Positions 15,335 to 19,201 of a DNA stretch of 47,306 bases are shown one piece after another. The stretch spans positions 1 to 47,306 of the forward strand of contig ONHW01000019.1 of the NCBI GenBank assembly GCA_900317745.1, in the 5' to 3' direction. Position numbers and translations under genes: made by a program. Position 1 is the first letter of the stretch, and the number at the start of each line of letters is the position of its first letter. The notes under the pieces were generated by a model. That model searched no databases and was not told the DNA's origin. It saw only the letters and a list, made by a program, of their open reading frames with translations. This DNA comes from an uncultured Bacteroidales bacterium (lineage in GTDB: Bacteria; Bacteroidota; Bacteroidia; Bacteroidales; Paludibacteraceae).

Positions 15335-17182
15335 ATGACAACACAAGATAAACTTACCGCATTACGCGGATTGATGCAGAAAGAGGGACTCAGCGCATAT
15401 ATCGTGCCGAGCACCGACCCGCACGCATCAGAATATATGGCAAGCCACTGGGCAGAAGTACACTGGCTTACATCGTTCACCGGCGAAGCCGGAACGGCCG
15501 TTGTAACCATGGATCAGGCATTGCTCTGGACCGACAGCCGCTACTACCTGCAGGCTGGTATCCAACTGGAGGGCACTACCGTCAGCCTGATGCGCGAATC
15601 GGACATCGACTGCCCGAAGATCGCCGATTGGCTGATTTCAGCAATCAGCAATCAGCCAAAGATGGCTGATACATCATGCGTGGGAGTAAATCCCGAGATG
15701 TGGAGCGTGAACGAATACAAGAAGCTCAAGGAGCAACTGGCAGAAGCAGGCATAAGACTGAAATCCGTTGATCTGATTCGCCCGCTGTGGACCACTGATC
15801 GTCCGGCTATACCGACCCACCGATTCTTTGAGTTCGACACCCGGTATGCAGGCGAGAGCGTTCATAGCAAGCTGGAGCGCATGCGCTCGAAGATGCGCGA
15901 GAAGAAAGCCGATGCCATGGTAGTCAGTGCCCTGGACGAGATAGCCTGGGTACTGAACATCCGAGGCAATGATGTGGAGTACAACCCCGTAGTGATCAGT
16001 TACCTGGTACTGGAGCAGGAGAAATGCACACTGTTCGTAGGCAACGAAAAAGTCACTCGCGAAGTGTCCGCCTACCTGCGCGCCAACGATATAGACATAC
16101 GCGGCTACAACGAGGTGTTCGGATACCTGAGTGGTCTGGAGTGTACTATCCTGTACGACGGAGCAAAAGTCAACGAGGCACTGTACGAAGCCATCAGCAC
16201 CGCAGCCAAAACGGTGAACGCACAATCGCCTATACAGATTGCCAAATCCCACAAGAACGACATTGAGCTTGCCGGTGTACGCCGCGCCATGGAGCAGGAT
16301 GCTGTAGCGTTGGTACGGTTCTTCCGCTGGCTGGAGAGCAATGACACACGCGAGAAGATGGCTGACGGCAAACTCACCGAGTGGGATCTGATGGAGCAGC
16401 TGCACACCTTCCGCACGATGGGCAAACGTTTCATCGAAGAGAGTTTCGGCACTATTGCCGGCTACCAGGGCAACGGTGCCATTGTGCATTACGCGGCTAA
16501 CGAAGATACGGCTGCTACCGTCTATCCCCAAGGAATGTTGCTGCTTGATAGCGGCGGGCAGTATCTGGACGGCACAACGGATATAACCCGTACAGTCTGG
16601 TTGGGCGGAAAGATACCGGCACAAGCCAAGCGCGACTACACCTACGTGCTGAAGGGACATCTGATGCTCGGACATATACGCTGGCCGCGAGGCACACGGG
16701 GTAACCAGCTCGACGCACTCGCCAAGCAGTACATGTGGCAGGCGGGCATAACCTACGGACACGGTACAGGTCACGGAGTAGGACACTTCCTCGGCTGCCA
16801 CGAGGGACCGCAGAACATACGCACGGATATGAACCCGACCGTACTCGAGCCCGGACAGATATGCTCCAACGAGCCGGGTATATACCGCACCGGCAAATGG
16901 GGTATCCGCACTGAGAACCTCGTAGCTGTCACGCCTGTTGACAGCACACCGGAAGCCACCACCGAGGACGAATGGCTGACATGGGAAACTCTGACACTCT
17001 GCCCGTACGACACCAAGCTCATAGACCTCAGCCTGCTTACCGAGCAGGAACGCCAATGGCTGAACGACTATCATGCCGAGGTCTATCGCCGCATCAGCCC
17101 GCTGCTTGATACAGAGGAAGAAAAGTGGTTGAAGAAAAAGACCCTCCCCCTACCCCTCCCTCATAGGGCGGGGAGTAAATAG
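15335..17182 (+). CDS. Xaa-Pro aminopeptidase (aminopeptidase P, M24 family)
   Basis: A 615-residue dinuclear-metal peptidase removing N-terminal residues before proline; no signal peptide, so cytosolic. It has the three-domain long form of eukaryotic and Bacteroidetes aminopeptidase P: two creatinase-like N-terminal domains and a catalytic C-terminal domain with metal ligands in LLLDSGGQYLDGTTDITRT, the His of GHGTGHGVGHFLGCHEGP, the Glu of SNEPGIY and the Glu of IRTENL. The start ATG at 15335 opens MTTQDKLTALRGLMQKEGL, the family's beginning; an upstream frame extension is not homologous in character. The expected end EEKWLKKKT is followed by about a dozen extra residues (LPLPLPHRAGSK) encoded by a palindromic repeat that also supplies the stop codon. 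Confidence 0.95.
   Translation: MTTQDKLTALRGLMQKEGLSAYIVPSTDPHASEYMASHWAEVHWLTSFTGEAGTAVVTMDQALLWTDSRYYLQAGIQLEGTTVSLMRESDIDCPKIADWLISAISNQPKMADTSCVGVNPEMWSVNEYKKLKEQLAEAGIRLKSVDLIRPLWTTDRPAIPTHRFFEFDTRYAGESVHSKLERMRSKMREKKADAMVVSALDEIAWVLNIRGNDVEYNPVVISYLVLEQEKCTLFVGNEKVTREVSAYLRANDIDIRGYNEVFGYLSGLECTILYDGAKVNEALYEAISTAAKTVNAQSPIQIAKSHKNDIELAGVRRAMEQDAVALVRFFRWLESNDTREKMADGKLTEWDLMEQLHTFRTMGKRFIEESFGTIAGYQGNGAIVHYAANEDTAATVYPQGMLLLDSGGQYLDGTTDITRTVWLGGKIPAQAKRDYTYVLKGHLMLGHIRWPRGTRGNQLDALAKQYMWQAGITYGHGTGHGVGHFLGCHEGPQNIRTDMNPTVLEPGQICSNEPGIYRTGKWGIRTENLVAVTPVDSTPEATTEDEWLTWETLTLCPYDTKLIDLSLLTEQERQWLNDYHAEVYRRISPLLDTEEEKWLKKKTLPLPLPHRAGSK
17140..17182 (+). repeat. GC-rich palindromic repeat, family 1, copy A (end of aminopeptidase gene)
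   Basis: Core CCCCTCCCTCATAGGG followed by CGGGGAGTAAATAG. It is read as the C-terminal LPLPLPHRAGSK of the aminopeptidase, and its own TAG is the stop. Two more copies lie in argS (17363 and 18877). Confidence 0.85.
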
Positions 17183-17341
17183 CCTTGTAGAGCAATTGCC
17201 ATAGTATATGTAGCAACAATCATTAACGAATATCACTTTATGCGTTTTACAAATGAAGAGATACTATTCGATACAGAAAATGTACTTGCACAAATAGAAA
17301 AATATTTTGAATAAAAACCCGTTAAGCAAAACACACCTAAC
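17183..17341. other. Spacer before argS
   Basis: A 159-base AT-rich gap. It contains one possible 24-codon open frame (17240-17314, MRFTNEEILF onward) that I cannot support as a gene. No clear promoter is visible, so argS may be read from upstream. Confidence 0.5.
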
Positions 17342-19201
17342 ATGTCAGATATTAATCATACTACTTCCCTCCCTATGAGGGAGGGGCAGGGAGTGGGTCT
17401 TGAAGAGATCCTCAAGCAACAAGTGAAGGCAGCGGTAAAAGCGCTGTACGGCATTGACGCAGATGACAAACAGATACAACTGCAAAAGACCCGCCCGGAG
17501 TTTGAAGGAAACATTACACTCGTAGTGTTCCCGTTCGTCAAACTTGCCCGCAAAGCACCGGCACAGGTTGCCGAAGAGATAGGCAAAGCAATGACGGACA
17601 GCGCCATTGTAGGCGAACCGGTTATTGAGAAGTTCAATGCCGTGCAAGGCTTCCTGAACATGAGCATCGCACCCTCGTTCTGGATTGAGCAACTCGAGGC
17701 TATTGCCGCCAACCCGCAATACGGCGAGCAGCCCGACCGCAACCAACTTATGATGGTTGAGTATTCGTCGCCGAACACCAATAAGCCATTGCACCTCGGG
17801 CACGTGAGGAACAACCTGCTCGGCTCGAGCATAGCCCGTATCCAGGAGGCTAACGGCTGGAAGGTGGTAAAGACGAACATTGTGAACGACCGTGGCATAC
17901 ACATCTGCAAATCGATGCTCGCATGGCTGAAGTTCGGCAACGGCGAGACACCCGAGTCGTCCGGCAAGAAAGGCGACCACCTGATTGGCGATTACTATGT
18001 ACGTTTCGACAAGGAGTACCGCAAGCAGATAGCCGAACTGATGGCAGGCGGCATGAGCGAGGACGACGCCAAGCGTGAAGCACCGCTGATGAAAGAAGCC
18101 CAGGCTATGCTGCTCAAGTGGGAGCAAGGCGACAAAGAGGTGCGCGAGCTTTGGGCAAAGATGAACAGTTGGGTCTATGCAGGCTTTGACGAAACATACA
18201 AAATGATGGGCGTCAGTTTCGACAAGATCTACTACGAGTCGAACACCTATCTGGAAGGCAAGAAAGAAGTGGAGCGCGGCTTGCAGGAAGGCTTGTTCTA
18301 CCGCCGCGAGGACGGTTCGGTTTGGGCAGACCTGACAGGCGACGGACTCGACGAGAAACTGCTACTCCGTTCGGACGGCACATCCGTATATATGACGCAG
18401 GATATAGGTACAGCCAAGCTTCGCTACCAGGATTATCCCATCGACAAGATGGTGTACGTGGTAGGCAACGAACAGGAGTACCACTTCAAGGTGCTGTCGC
18501 TGCTGCTGGATAAGCTCGGCTTCCCCTTCGGCAAGGAGCTGGTACACTTCTCCTACGGTATGGTTGAGCTGCCCAACGGCAAGATGAAAAGCCGCGAAGG
18601 CACGGTGGTCGATGCCGATGATCTGATGGAGCAGATGATCAAAGATGCCAAGGAAATAAGCAAGGATAAGGTGAATACCCTACCCGACATCACCGAGGCG
18701 GAAGCCAACGAGATTGCAAGGAAGGTGGGATTGGGTGCACTCAAATACTTCATCCTGAAGGTTGACCCGCGTAAGAACATGCTATTCAACCCCGAAGAGA
18801 GTATCGACTTCAACGGCAACACCGGTCCCTTTATACAATATACATACGCGCGCATACAGAGTGTGCTGAGGAAAGGAAGACCCACCTCCAGCCCCTCCCT
18901 CATAGGGAGAGGGGTAAATAGTCCCGATACATTGAACGACAAGGAAGTTGCCCTTATCCAACGACTGACCGATTATCCGGCAACGGTGAAGCAGGCAGGC
19001 GAGGAGTTCAGTCCCGCCGTACTGTGCAACTACGCATACGCTCTGGCGCAGGAGTTCAACTCGTTCTATCACGACTATTCGATTCTGAACGAAGCCGACG
19101 AACAGAAGAAGAACCTCCGTCTGCTGCTGAGCGCCGAAGTAGCCAAGGTACTGAAGCACGCTATGGCTCTACTCGGTATAGAAATGCCAGCACGCATGTA
19201 A
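17342..19201 (+). CDS. argS: Arginyl-tRNA synthetase
   Basis: A 619-residue class I aminoacyl-tRNA synthetase charging tRNA-Arg. Seen are the N-terminal tRNA-binding domain (QLQKTRPEFEGNITLVVFPF, about 47-66), the HIGH-type motif SPNTNKPLHLGHVRNN (HLGH 151-154), a KMSK-like region GKMKSREGTVVDADDL (about 414-429) and the DALR anticodon domain (FIQYTYARIQSVL to the C-terminus). Two short stretches are repeat-derived: residues about 7-21 (TTSLPMREGQGVGLE) before the normal N-terminus, and about 512-530 (GRPTSSPSLIGRGVNSP) in the linker after LRK where relatives carry a variable loop. Both insertions keep the frame. Initiation could also occur at the ATG inside the first repeat (17375). Confidence 0.97.
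   Translation: MSDINHTTSLPMREGQGVGLEEILKQQVKAAVKALYGIDADDKQIQLQKTRPEFEGNITLVVFPFVKLARKAPAQVAEEIGKAMTDSAIVGEPVIEKFNAVQGFLNMSIAPSFWIEQLEAIAANPQYGEQPDRNQLMMVEYSSPNTNKPLHLGHVRNNLLGSSIARIQEANGWKVVKTNIVNDRGIHICKSMLAWLKFGNGETPESSGKKGDHLIGDYYVRFDKEYRKQIAELMAGGMSEDDAKREAPLMKEAQAMLLKWEQGDKEVRELWAKMNSWVYAGFDETYKMMGVSFDKIYYESNTYLEGKKEVERGLQEGLFYRREDGSVWADLTGDGLDEKLLLRSDGTSVYMTQDIGTAKLRYQDYPIDKMVYVVGNEQEYHFKVLSLLLDKLGFPFGKELVHFSYGMVELPNGKMKSREGTVVDADDLMEQMIKDAKEISKDKVNTLPDITEAEANEIARKVGLGALKYFILKVDPRKNMLFNPEESIDFNGNTGPFIQYTYARIQSVLRKGRPTSSPSLIGRGVNSPDTLNDKEVALIQRLTDYPATVKQAGEEFSPAVLCNYAYALAQEFNSFYHDYSILNEADEQKKNLRLLLSAEVAKVLKHAMALLGIEMPARM
17363..17402 (-). repeat. GC-rich palindromic repeat, family 1, copy B (5' end of argS)
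   Basis: The reverse complement reads AAGACCCACTCCCTGCCCC then TCCCTCATAGGGAGGGAAGT, so it is inverted relative to copies A and C. It encodes TTSLPMREGQGVGLE at the ArgRS N-terminus. Confidence 0.85.
18877..18931 (+). repeat. GC-rich palindromic repeat, family 1, copy C (inside argS)
   Basis: AAGACCCACCTCCAGCCCC then TCCCTCATAGGGAGAGGGG and GTAAATAG, in the same orientation as copy A but in another reading frame, so its TAG is bypassed. It encodes GRPTSSPSLIGRGVNSP in the ArgRS linker. Confidence 0.85.

Follow-up and report, generated by a model that had tools for sequence, protein, structure and literature searches.

How does one short GC-run palindrome come to be translated at three places in two neighbouring conserved genes, and what could have put it there? 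The question is raised by contig ONHW01000019.1 of an uncultured gut Bacteroidales bacterium, a stretch of 47,306 nt (hereafter the window) that constitutes contig 32 of a Paludibacteraceae-type metagenome-assembled genome (MAG) of 2.60 Mb in 38 contigs (G000). Three exact copies of the palindrome core CCCCTCCCTCATAGGG lie at the junction of a putative Xaa-Pro aminopeptidase gene and argS, the gene for arginyl-tRNA synthetase (ArgRS), and within the latter: copy A at 17153-17168 (plus strand), copy B at 17371-17386 (minus strand) and copy C at 18892-18907 (plus strand). Here we propose, from sequence comparison, that copies A and B are probably palindromes in inverted orientation at the two ends of a small, homing-like mobile unit whose DUF559 nuclease gene has decayed.

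When up to three mismatches to the core are allowed, the window holds three matches against 0.17 expected, a number reached in none of 100 shuffles; in the whole genome the same tolerance returns 33 occurrences, compared with 12 for the reversed pattern. Copies A and C are 84% identical in direct orientation over 45 nt, while the inverted comparisons A/B and B/C give 88% and 85% over 40 nt. Copy A supplies the stop codon and final residues of the aminopeptidase (TLPLPLPHRAGSK), the C-terminal reading through the element being KTLPLPLPHRAGSK followed by the stop. Copy B, read on the strand opposite to the element, encodes the ArgRS N-terminal peptide MSDINHTTSLPMREGQGVGLEE on the plus strand. 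Copy C is read in the ArgRS linker as RPTSSPSLIGRGVNS, with the TAAATAG of the element falling out of frame. The cores, frames and peptides reported in a first-pass annotation of this DNA are thus borne out; its placement of all three copies inside the two genes holds for copy C, which is internal, but A and B lie at gene ends (Table 1).

The peptides are not conserved residues of the host protein, in agreement with that annotation. Among 109 ArgRS homologue loci, some genomes being represented twice and four unreadable loci (L044, L058, L064 and L101) having been dropped, a peptide resembling that of copy B occurs only in locus L031, and a decayed C-like peptide only in L047. The nearest ArgRS relatives are Paludibacteraceae or uncultured Bacteroidales, many of them from gut samples. 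L031 carries A and B at the same places, and is alone in sharing the window's site, with a broken yet longer DUF559-like frame between them. The window keeps just an end of this frame, a 29-aa scrap overlooked in the first-pass annotation and absent from the PF04480 profile matches of its own genome, being too short for a profile search. Because L031 shares both palindromes, with the longer DUF559-like frame between, A and B are best read as one pair and not, as previously supposed, as two separate insertions; the existence of an A–scrap–B unit in the window is, through this sequence comparison, well supported.

Other close relatives provide the empty site. In L047, whose ArgRS is 97% identical, A and B are missing, ArgRS starts with MTLEETL, and a decayed copy C is kept; L032 and L033 have none of the three copies. 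The DNA of the window and L047 is ~96% identical on either side of the A-B unit, which may have been gained in the window lineage or lost in that of L047. Immediately to the left of copy A, 12 of 27 bases (17110-17136) differ from L047, as against 10 in 318 farther left, a pattern only suggestive of a conversion tract. It is very improbable that the repeats are artefacts of assembly or binning. The window genome is indeed split into 38 contigs and its near relatives here are MAGs, but the high identity to L047 on both sides of the unit, the same junctions in another MAG (L031), and the same architecture in three single-contig genomes (G105, G179 and G312) all speak against it.

The palindrome is dispersed well beyond this locus, as the first-pass annotation had anticipated. 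A covariance model, built from 14 copies that include A, B and C and are themselves counted in the total, finds 24 copies of a ~48-nt family in G000 at E<1e-3 and 51 at E<=1; the latter set includes both palindromes flanking the intact DUF559 gene of this genome (E 0.08 and 0.4). The consensus spans AAGACCC to AGTAATTA, with approximate ends, and a GTAG/CGTC tag was not noticed by eye, no dedicated scan having been made. Thirteen of the 24 copies are spanned in frame, on either strand, by Pfam-confirmed genes: ArgRS (two, one at its start), RmlD, a pyridine-nucleotide oxidoreductase, MBOAT, an S9 peptidase, LigA, ABC-F, an HflX-like GTPase, an HU-like protein, PolA and a polysaccharide deacetylase (two, forming a close inverted pair). 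Two further copies form protein ends, those of the aminopeptidase (not scanned against Pfam) and of GcpE/IspG, and nine lie outside genes or are of unclear placement. No nuclease gene of their own was detected for copy C and the 21 further family copies, which occur as single or close-paired palindromes. Mobility and translation through the element are good inferences, since it is dispersed, most relatives lack it at these sites, and many genes read across it in an open frame.

The same data bear on the idea that the hairpins are functional terminators or RNA-stabilising structures of host or DUF559 genes, and not mobile ends. Many prokaryotic repetitive extragenic palindromes (REPs) lie near gene 3' ends (PMC3733652), as copy A does. 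Against this, 13 of the 24 copies are in frame, on either strand, within Pfam-confirmed genes, A and B are missing from L047, L032 and L033, and palindrome pairs bound DUF559 domains inside host enzymes; the conservation of position across species that such a function requires was not seen at the window's sites. We consider this explanation improbable.

Two side observations concern palindromes in this genome. In the family copies at L327, L333, L336 and L337 the hairpin loop is longer by 36 nt (around CACCCCACTTCCGTTGGTCGCGGGG), which look nested, and open frames of conserved genes run across three of these four. G000 also has a second dispersed palindrome family (about AAAGCCTACCCCCAACCCCTCCCTGAAAGGAGGGG; L012-L014, L020, L021, L027 and L030), with copies at C20:6805 and 6844 separated by 39 nt.

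PF04480 matches over the profile cut-off were found in 23 of 61 genomes of the genus, including G000 (25 loci), and 124 of 296 genomes sampled across the phylum had a DUF559 match at E<=1e-20. The flanks of 85 loci were examined for inverted palindromes, of which 79 could be scored (74 of DUF559 type and five of other types), the six omitted loci having short or masked flanks (L158, L159, L163, L181, L199 and L224). Inverted palindromes surround 51 of the 74 Bacteroidota DUF559 loci at a score of at least 30, and 35 at a score of at least 38. In random windows the corresponding numbers are 13 and 4 of 948 when drawn from other loci of the phylum, and 11 and 1 of 948 within the family. Within the genus, 12 of 17 DUF559-type loci have inverted pairs at the lower threshold and 11 at the higher, with direct matches at one; among the 57 phylum loci there are 39 inverted pairs and 29 direct matches. 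None of the five genus loci of other types (helicase fusions and Vsr-like genes) has an inverted pair. A null drawn from mismatched upstream and downstream flanks, in which 58 of 600 pairs reach 30, was dropped as unclean because related genomes share palindrome families.

In the paired loci inspected the tail is mostly outside and the hairpin inside, as in the window, and the two palindromes at one locus match each other while those of different loci differ. The intact DUF559 gene of G000 likewise has a palindrome on each side, the second read in frame in the next gene. The association extends to plasmids of other phyla, where 12 of 37 records were examined: five show clear pairs (in Deinococcus, Pseudanabaena, Sphingomonas, Azospirillum and Qipengyuania), two weak ones and five none. 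We regard the pairing of DUF559 with inverted palindromes as well supported, with some loci not being simple pairs. The DUF559 protein of one locus (L145, not that of the window) matches structure 3hrl_A, an Endonuclease-Like Protein (E 4e-17). As a separate observation, in a Synechocystis plasmid (L304) a DUF1156 gene and a hypothetical gene are separated by a DUF559 gene that has weak palindromes; this may be a case of an interrupted methylase.

An alternative is that the palindromes are REP-like or miniature inverted-repeat transposable elements moved by another enzyme, either a REP-associated tyrosine transposase (RAYT) of the HUH type or something unknown, and that DUF559 genes are captured passengers or home into them. 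REPs with RAYT genes are a known precedent (PMC3733652), the 24 copies in G000 far exceed the single strong DUF559 match of this genome, Y1_Tnp matches over the cut-off occur in 12 of 41 genomes of the genus, and palindrome arrays flank many DUF559 genes. However, the single Y1_Tnp match of G000 is below the cut-off and no palindromes were seen within 300 nt on either side of its open reading frame, so that a RAYT mobiliser in this genome was rejected; moreover, palindromes match within each DUF559 locus but differ between loci, and DUF559 domains overall cluster by host (see below). We therefore regard an independent mover as unlikely, though by no means negligible.

In the phylum sample, DUF559 is also found in frame inside conserved enzymes. 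Among the 150 DUF559 matches listed, 41 belong to frames of 350 aa or longer, many of them LeuRS, RecG, MetH, HsdR or DegT with insertion sites that recur. Forty loci with wide flanks were analysed, 39 of them long-frame (the long frame of L199 crosses a masked stretch). All 16 proteins scanned with Pfam combine DUF559 with a host domain: MetH, leucyl-tRNA synthetase (LeuRS, at two sites), RecG, HsdM, HsdR, DegT (two), a methylmalonyl-CoA mutase-type protein, UvrD helicases (two), an Eco57I-type methylase and a type ISP methylase; in HemF, HisF and an M23 peptidase the DUF559 domain lies to one side of the host domain. Many inserts are bordered by palindrome-like peptides, SPLPLGEGLGEG among them. 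No splicing domain is among the Pfam matches of these 16 fusions, and no intron or intein was recognised. The same sites recur in different genomes (LeuRS in four and three genomes at its two sites, and RecG, MetH and HsdR in four each), and the inserted LeuRS (seven genomes), RecG (four) and MetH (four) are the sole genes over the family cut-off in those genomes. Uninserted LeuRS (n=5) measure 931-949 aa against 1078-1206 aa with the insert, and RecG of the same family 701-713 aa (n=7) against 853-869 aa. Five of the seven uninserted RecG read WKKN.(I/L)PPH, and the insert falls between the tryptophan segment and PPH. In-frame DUF559 units are accordingly well supported. At the second LeuRS site, the protein of G198 (L250) has a different insert, KRFSTLSKGPESS...YRFDFFVEENNVGIAFELAF, by eye another or a degenerate PD-(D/E)XK domain.

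The relationships of these inserts have a homing-like pattern. A DUF559 tree was computed from 71 domains and 108 columns, with many weak forks; it leaves out L155, L156, L172, L181, L185 and L192, treats L175=L232 and L176=L233 as duplicates, and includes a slightly short domain from L145. Host labels were assigned by hand, 16 hosts having been Pfam-scanned, and one label, helX, covers two proteins of one genome, of which one was scanned and which are possibly different hosts. DUF559 domains cluster by host label, with 13 changes on the tree against a shuffled mean of 26.4, a number that none of 200 shuffles matched. The inserts in MetH, although drawn from three families, fall into a single group (support 91), as do those of RecG (94), HemF and HsdM (99 each). 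In a quick MetH tree of 19 genomes, the four inserted ones require four changes. Taken together, the single DUF559 group and the four changes imply one DUF559 lineage at one MetH site in hosts that are not neighbours, a pattern that, as far as sequences allow, fits horizontal homing; one old gain followed by many losses may also explain it. Footprints of lost units in MetH were sought and rejected: in G158 the segment GGGTTTGGGTGAGGC resembles the right end of an inserted copy, but the alignment scores of 20-28 are close to background (27-30 in clean relatives), and a footprint in G208 was unsupported.

From these data we envisage the following element. The unit would have a C-rich tail outside, a hairpin inside, and a DUF559 (Vsr-like PD-(D/E)XK) nuclease gene in the middle; in the window it would sit between the aminopeptidase gene and argS, giving the tail of the former protein and the head of ArgRS. 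The nuclease would cut an unoccupied target, repair would then copy the unit into the cut site, and the palindromes would provide ends read as stop-free peptides, so that the host gene survives unspliced. In this scheme the enzymatic step is inferred, as is the role of the palindromes. The process would amount to homing in which neither intron nor intein takes part, with the solo copies as non-autonomous relatives or remnants. A broader reading, which we advance tentatively and think nearly as probable as its opposite, is that this is a widespread mobile element of a new kind, a DUF559 gene that has translated palindromes at its ends, enters conserved enzymes (LeuRS, RecG, MetH, restriction subunits) by in-frame homing, stays as an unspliced extra domain and seeds solo coding palindromes.

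Several results weigh against such an element. In the window and L031 the unit is 46/50, 79/99 and 56/70 identical, and the flanks 82-84%; as the unit is not clearly more alike than its flanks, a recent transfer between the two is not shown. No DUF559 match is present in 38 of the 61 genus genomes, and G000 has no intact unit of this exact palindrome, its single strong DUF559 gene being flanked by another. No inverted pair was detected at 23 of the 74 DUF559 loci. Direct matches of at least 30 occur at 30 of the 74 (30 of 948 random phylum windows), the direct score beats the inverted one in 16 of the 51 paired loci, and at short-frame phylum loci (n=18) direct matches (17) are about as common as inverted ones (14). 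This near-equality implies that palindrome arrays are part of the signal, and direct matches are expected too, because hairpins self-match and arrays make up some of the flanks. Neither a target duplication nor a target motif was defined for the units. Four LeuRS that lack DUF559 likewise reach 1024-1127 aa, owing to other extra sequence, and the inserts of LeuRS site 1, LeuRS site 2, HsdR, DegT and the ISP methylase do not form single DUF559 groups in a tree of few columns.

In-frame palindromes as first noted here are a new member of a known phenomenon, that of intragenic REPs. Intragenic REPs, often in genes for DNA synthesis and repair, and REP-flanked RAYT genes are described by Di Nocera et al. 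(2013; PMC3733652). As in this genome, these are dispersed short palindromes, and the conserved genes that contain them include those for DNA polymerase I, DNA ligase and tRNA synthetases; some REP ends supply stop codons (PMC3733652). The palindromes described here differ in occurring in a Bacteroidales bacterium, in their GC runs, in lacking to the eye a GTAG/CGTC tag, and in that A and B are paired around a nuclease scrap. The comparison with Rickettsia palindromic elements made in the first-pass annotation stands as an analogy, resting on their description as in-frame elements and not on their sequences; the layout is more closely paralleled by a nuclease gene with inverted REPs at its ends. 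RAYT-REP units (REPtrons) consist of a DNA-cutting enzyme gene flanked by REPs, with more REPs elsewhere in the genome (PMC3733652), which resembles the inverted flanks of the A/B pair and of the DUF559 loci. Here, in contrast, the enzyme is DUF559-like and not an HUH tyrosine (Y1) transposase, and in other Bacteroidota the units also lie in frame within host enzymes.

Among nucleases, one DUF559 gene has been assigned to the EDxHD group (PMC9403480), and EDxHD/Vsr-like domains are known from the homing genes of phage introns (PMC12350094). The DUF559 units share with such homing endonucleases a Vsr-related nuclease and patchy, recurrent insertion at fixed sites of conserved genes (MetH in 4 of 19 genomes, LeuRS, RecG), but the insert is in frame between translated palindromes. 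The Caulobacter DUF559 protein VsrA (CCNA_02930), of the PD-(D/E)XK superfamily, is responsible for the SOS response in cells without the methyltransferase ScmA and, unlike the nuclease proposed here, is read in its paper as a repair-type enzyme (PMC12907096). Repeated segments in Legionella carry DUF559 and resemble recombination hotspots, but contain a transposase, and palindromes are unmentioned in the passages that describe them (PMC12308824). No link between DUF559 genes and palindromes was found in the accessible passages of the open-access literature.

In-frame palindromes are known, and what moves those without RAYTs is described as an open question by Di Nocera et al. (PMC3733652). 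A nuclease family that is often palindrome-bounded provides a direct, testable candidate for the mover of the GC-run kind. If DUF559 units do behave in this way, unspliced in-frame homing would be a further way, beside introns and inteins, for a homing nuclease to reside within a conserved gene, and the odd insert domains of LeuRS, RecG, MetH and restriction enzymes would be explained.

Table 1. Features of the aminopeptidase–argS locus, in window coordinates
Feature	Position	Strand	Basis or remark
Xaa-Pro aminopeptidase	15335..17182	+	name from the first-pass annotation, without Pfam scan; end supplied by copy A
Copy A, left palindrome of the unit	17138..17185	+	covariance model; tail AAGACCC outside, hairpin inside
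DUF559 scrap, read as C-terminal end of a nuclease gene (NEYHFMRFTNEEILFDTENVLAQIEKYFE, then stop)	17225..17314	+	similarity to the longer, also broken, frame of L031
ArgRS with copies B and C	17342..19201	+	Pfam tRNA-synt_1d, DALR_1, Arg_tRNA_synt_N
Copy B, right palindrome, inverted relative to A	17354..17401	-	covariance model
Copy C, solo palindrome read in frame within the ArgRS linker, which is hypervariable	18877..18924	+	covariance model

The ArgRS linker (window 18868-18932) is hypervariable, and relatives (L032, L033, L066, L068 and L074) carry different repeats there, including runs of CAGCAAT or AAAAGTC and, in L066, LTPTLYQGEGASPLVGDG, perhaps another palindrome. The aminopeptidase has an in-frame CAGCAATCAGCAATCAGCC repeat at 15637-15670, which resembles the ArgRS-linker repeat of L032.

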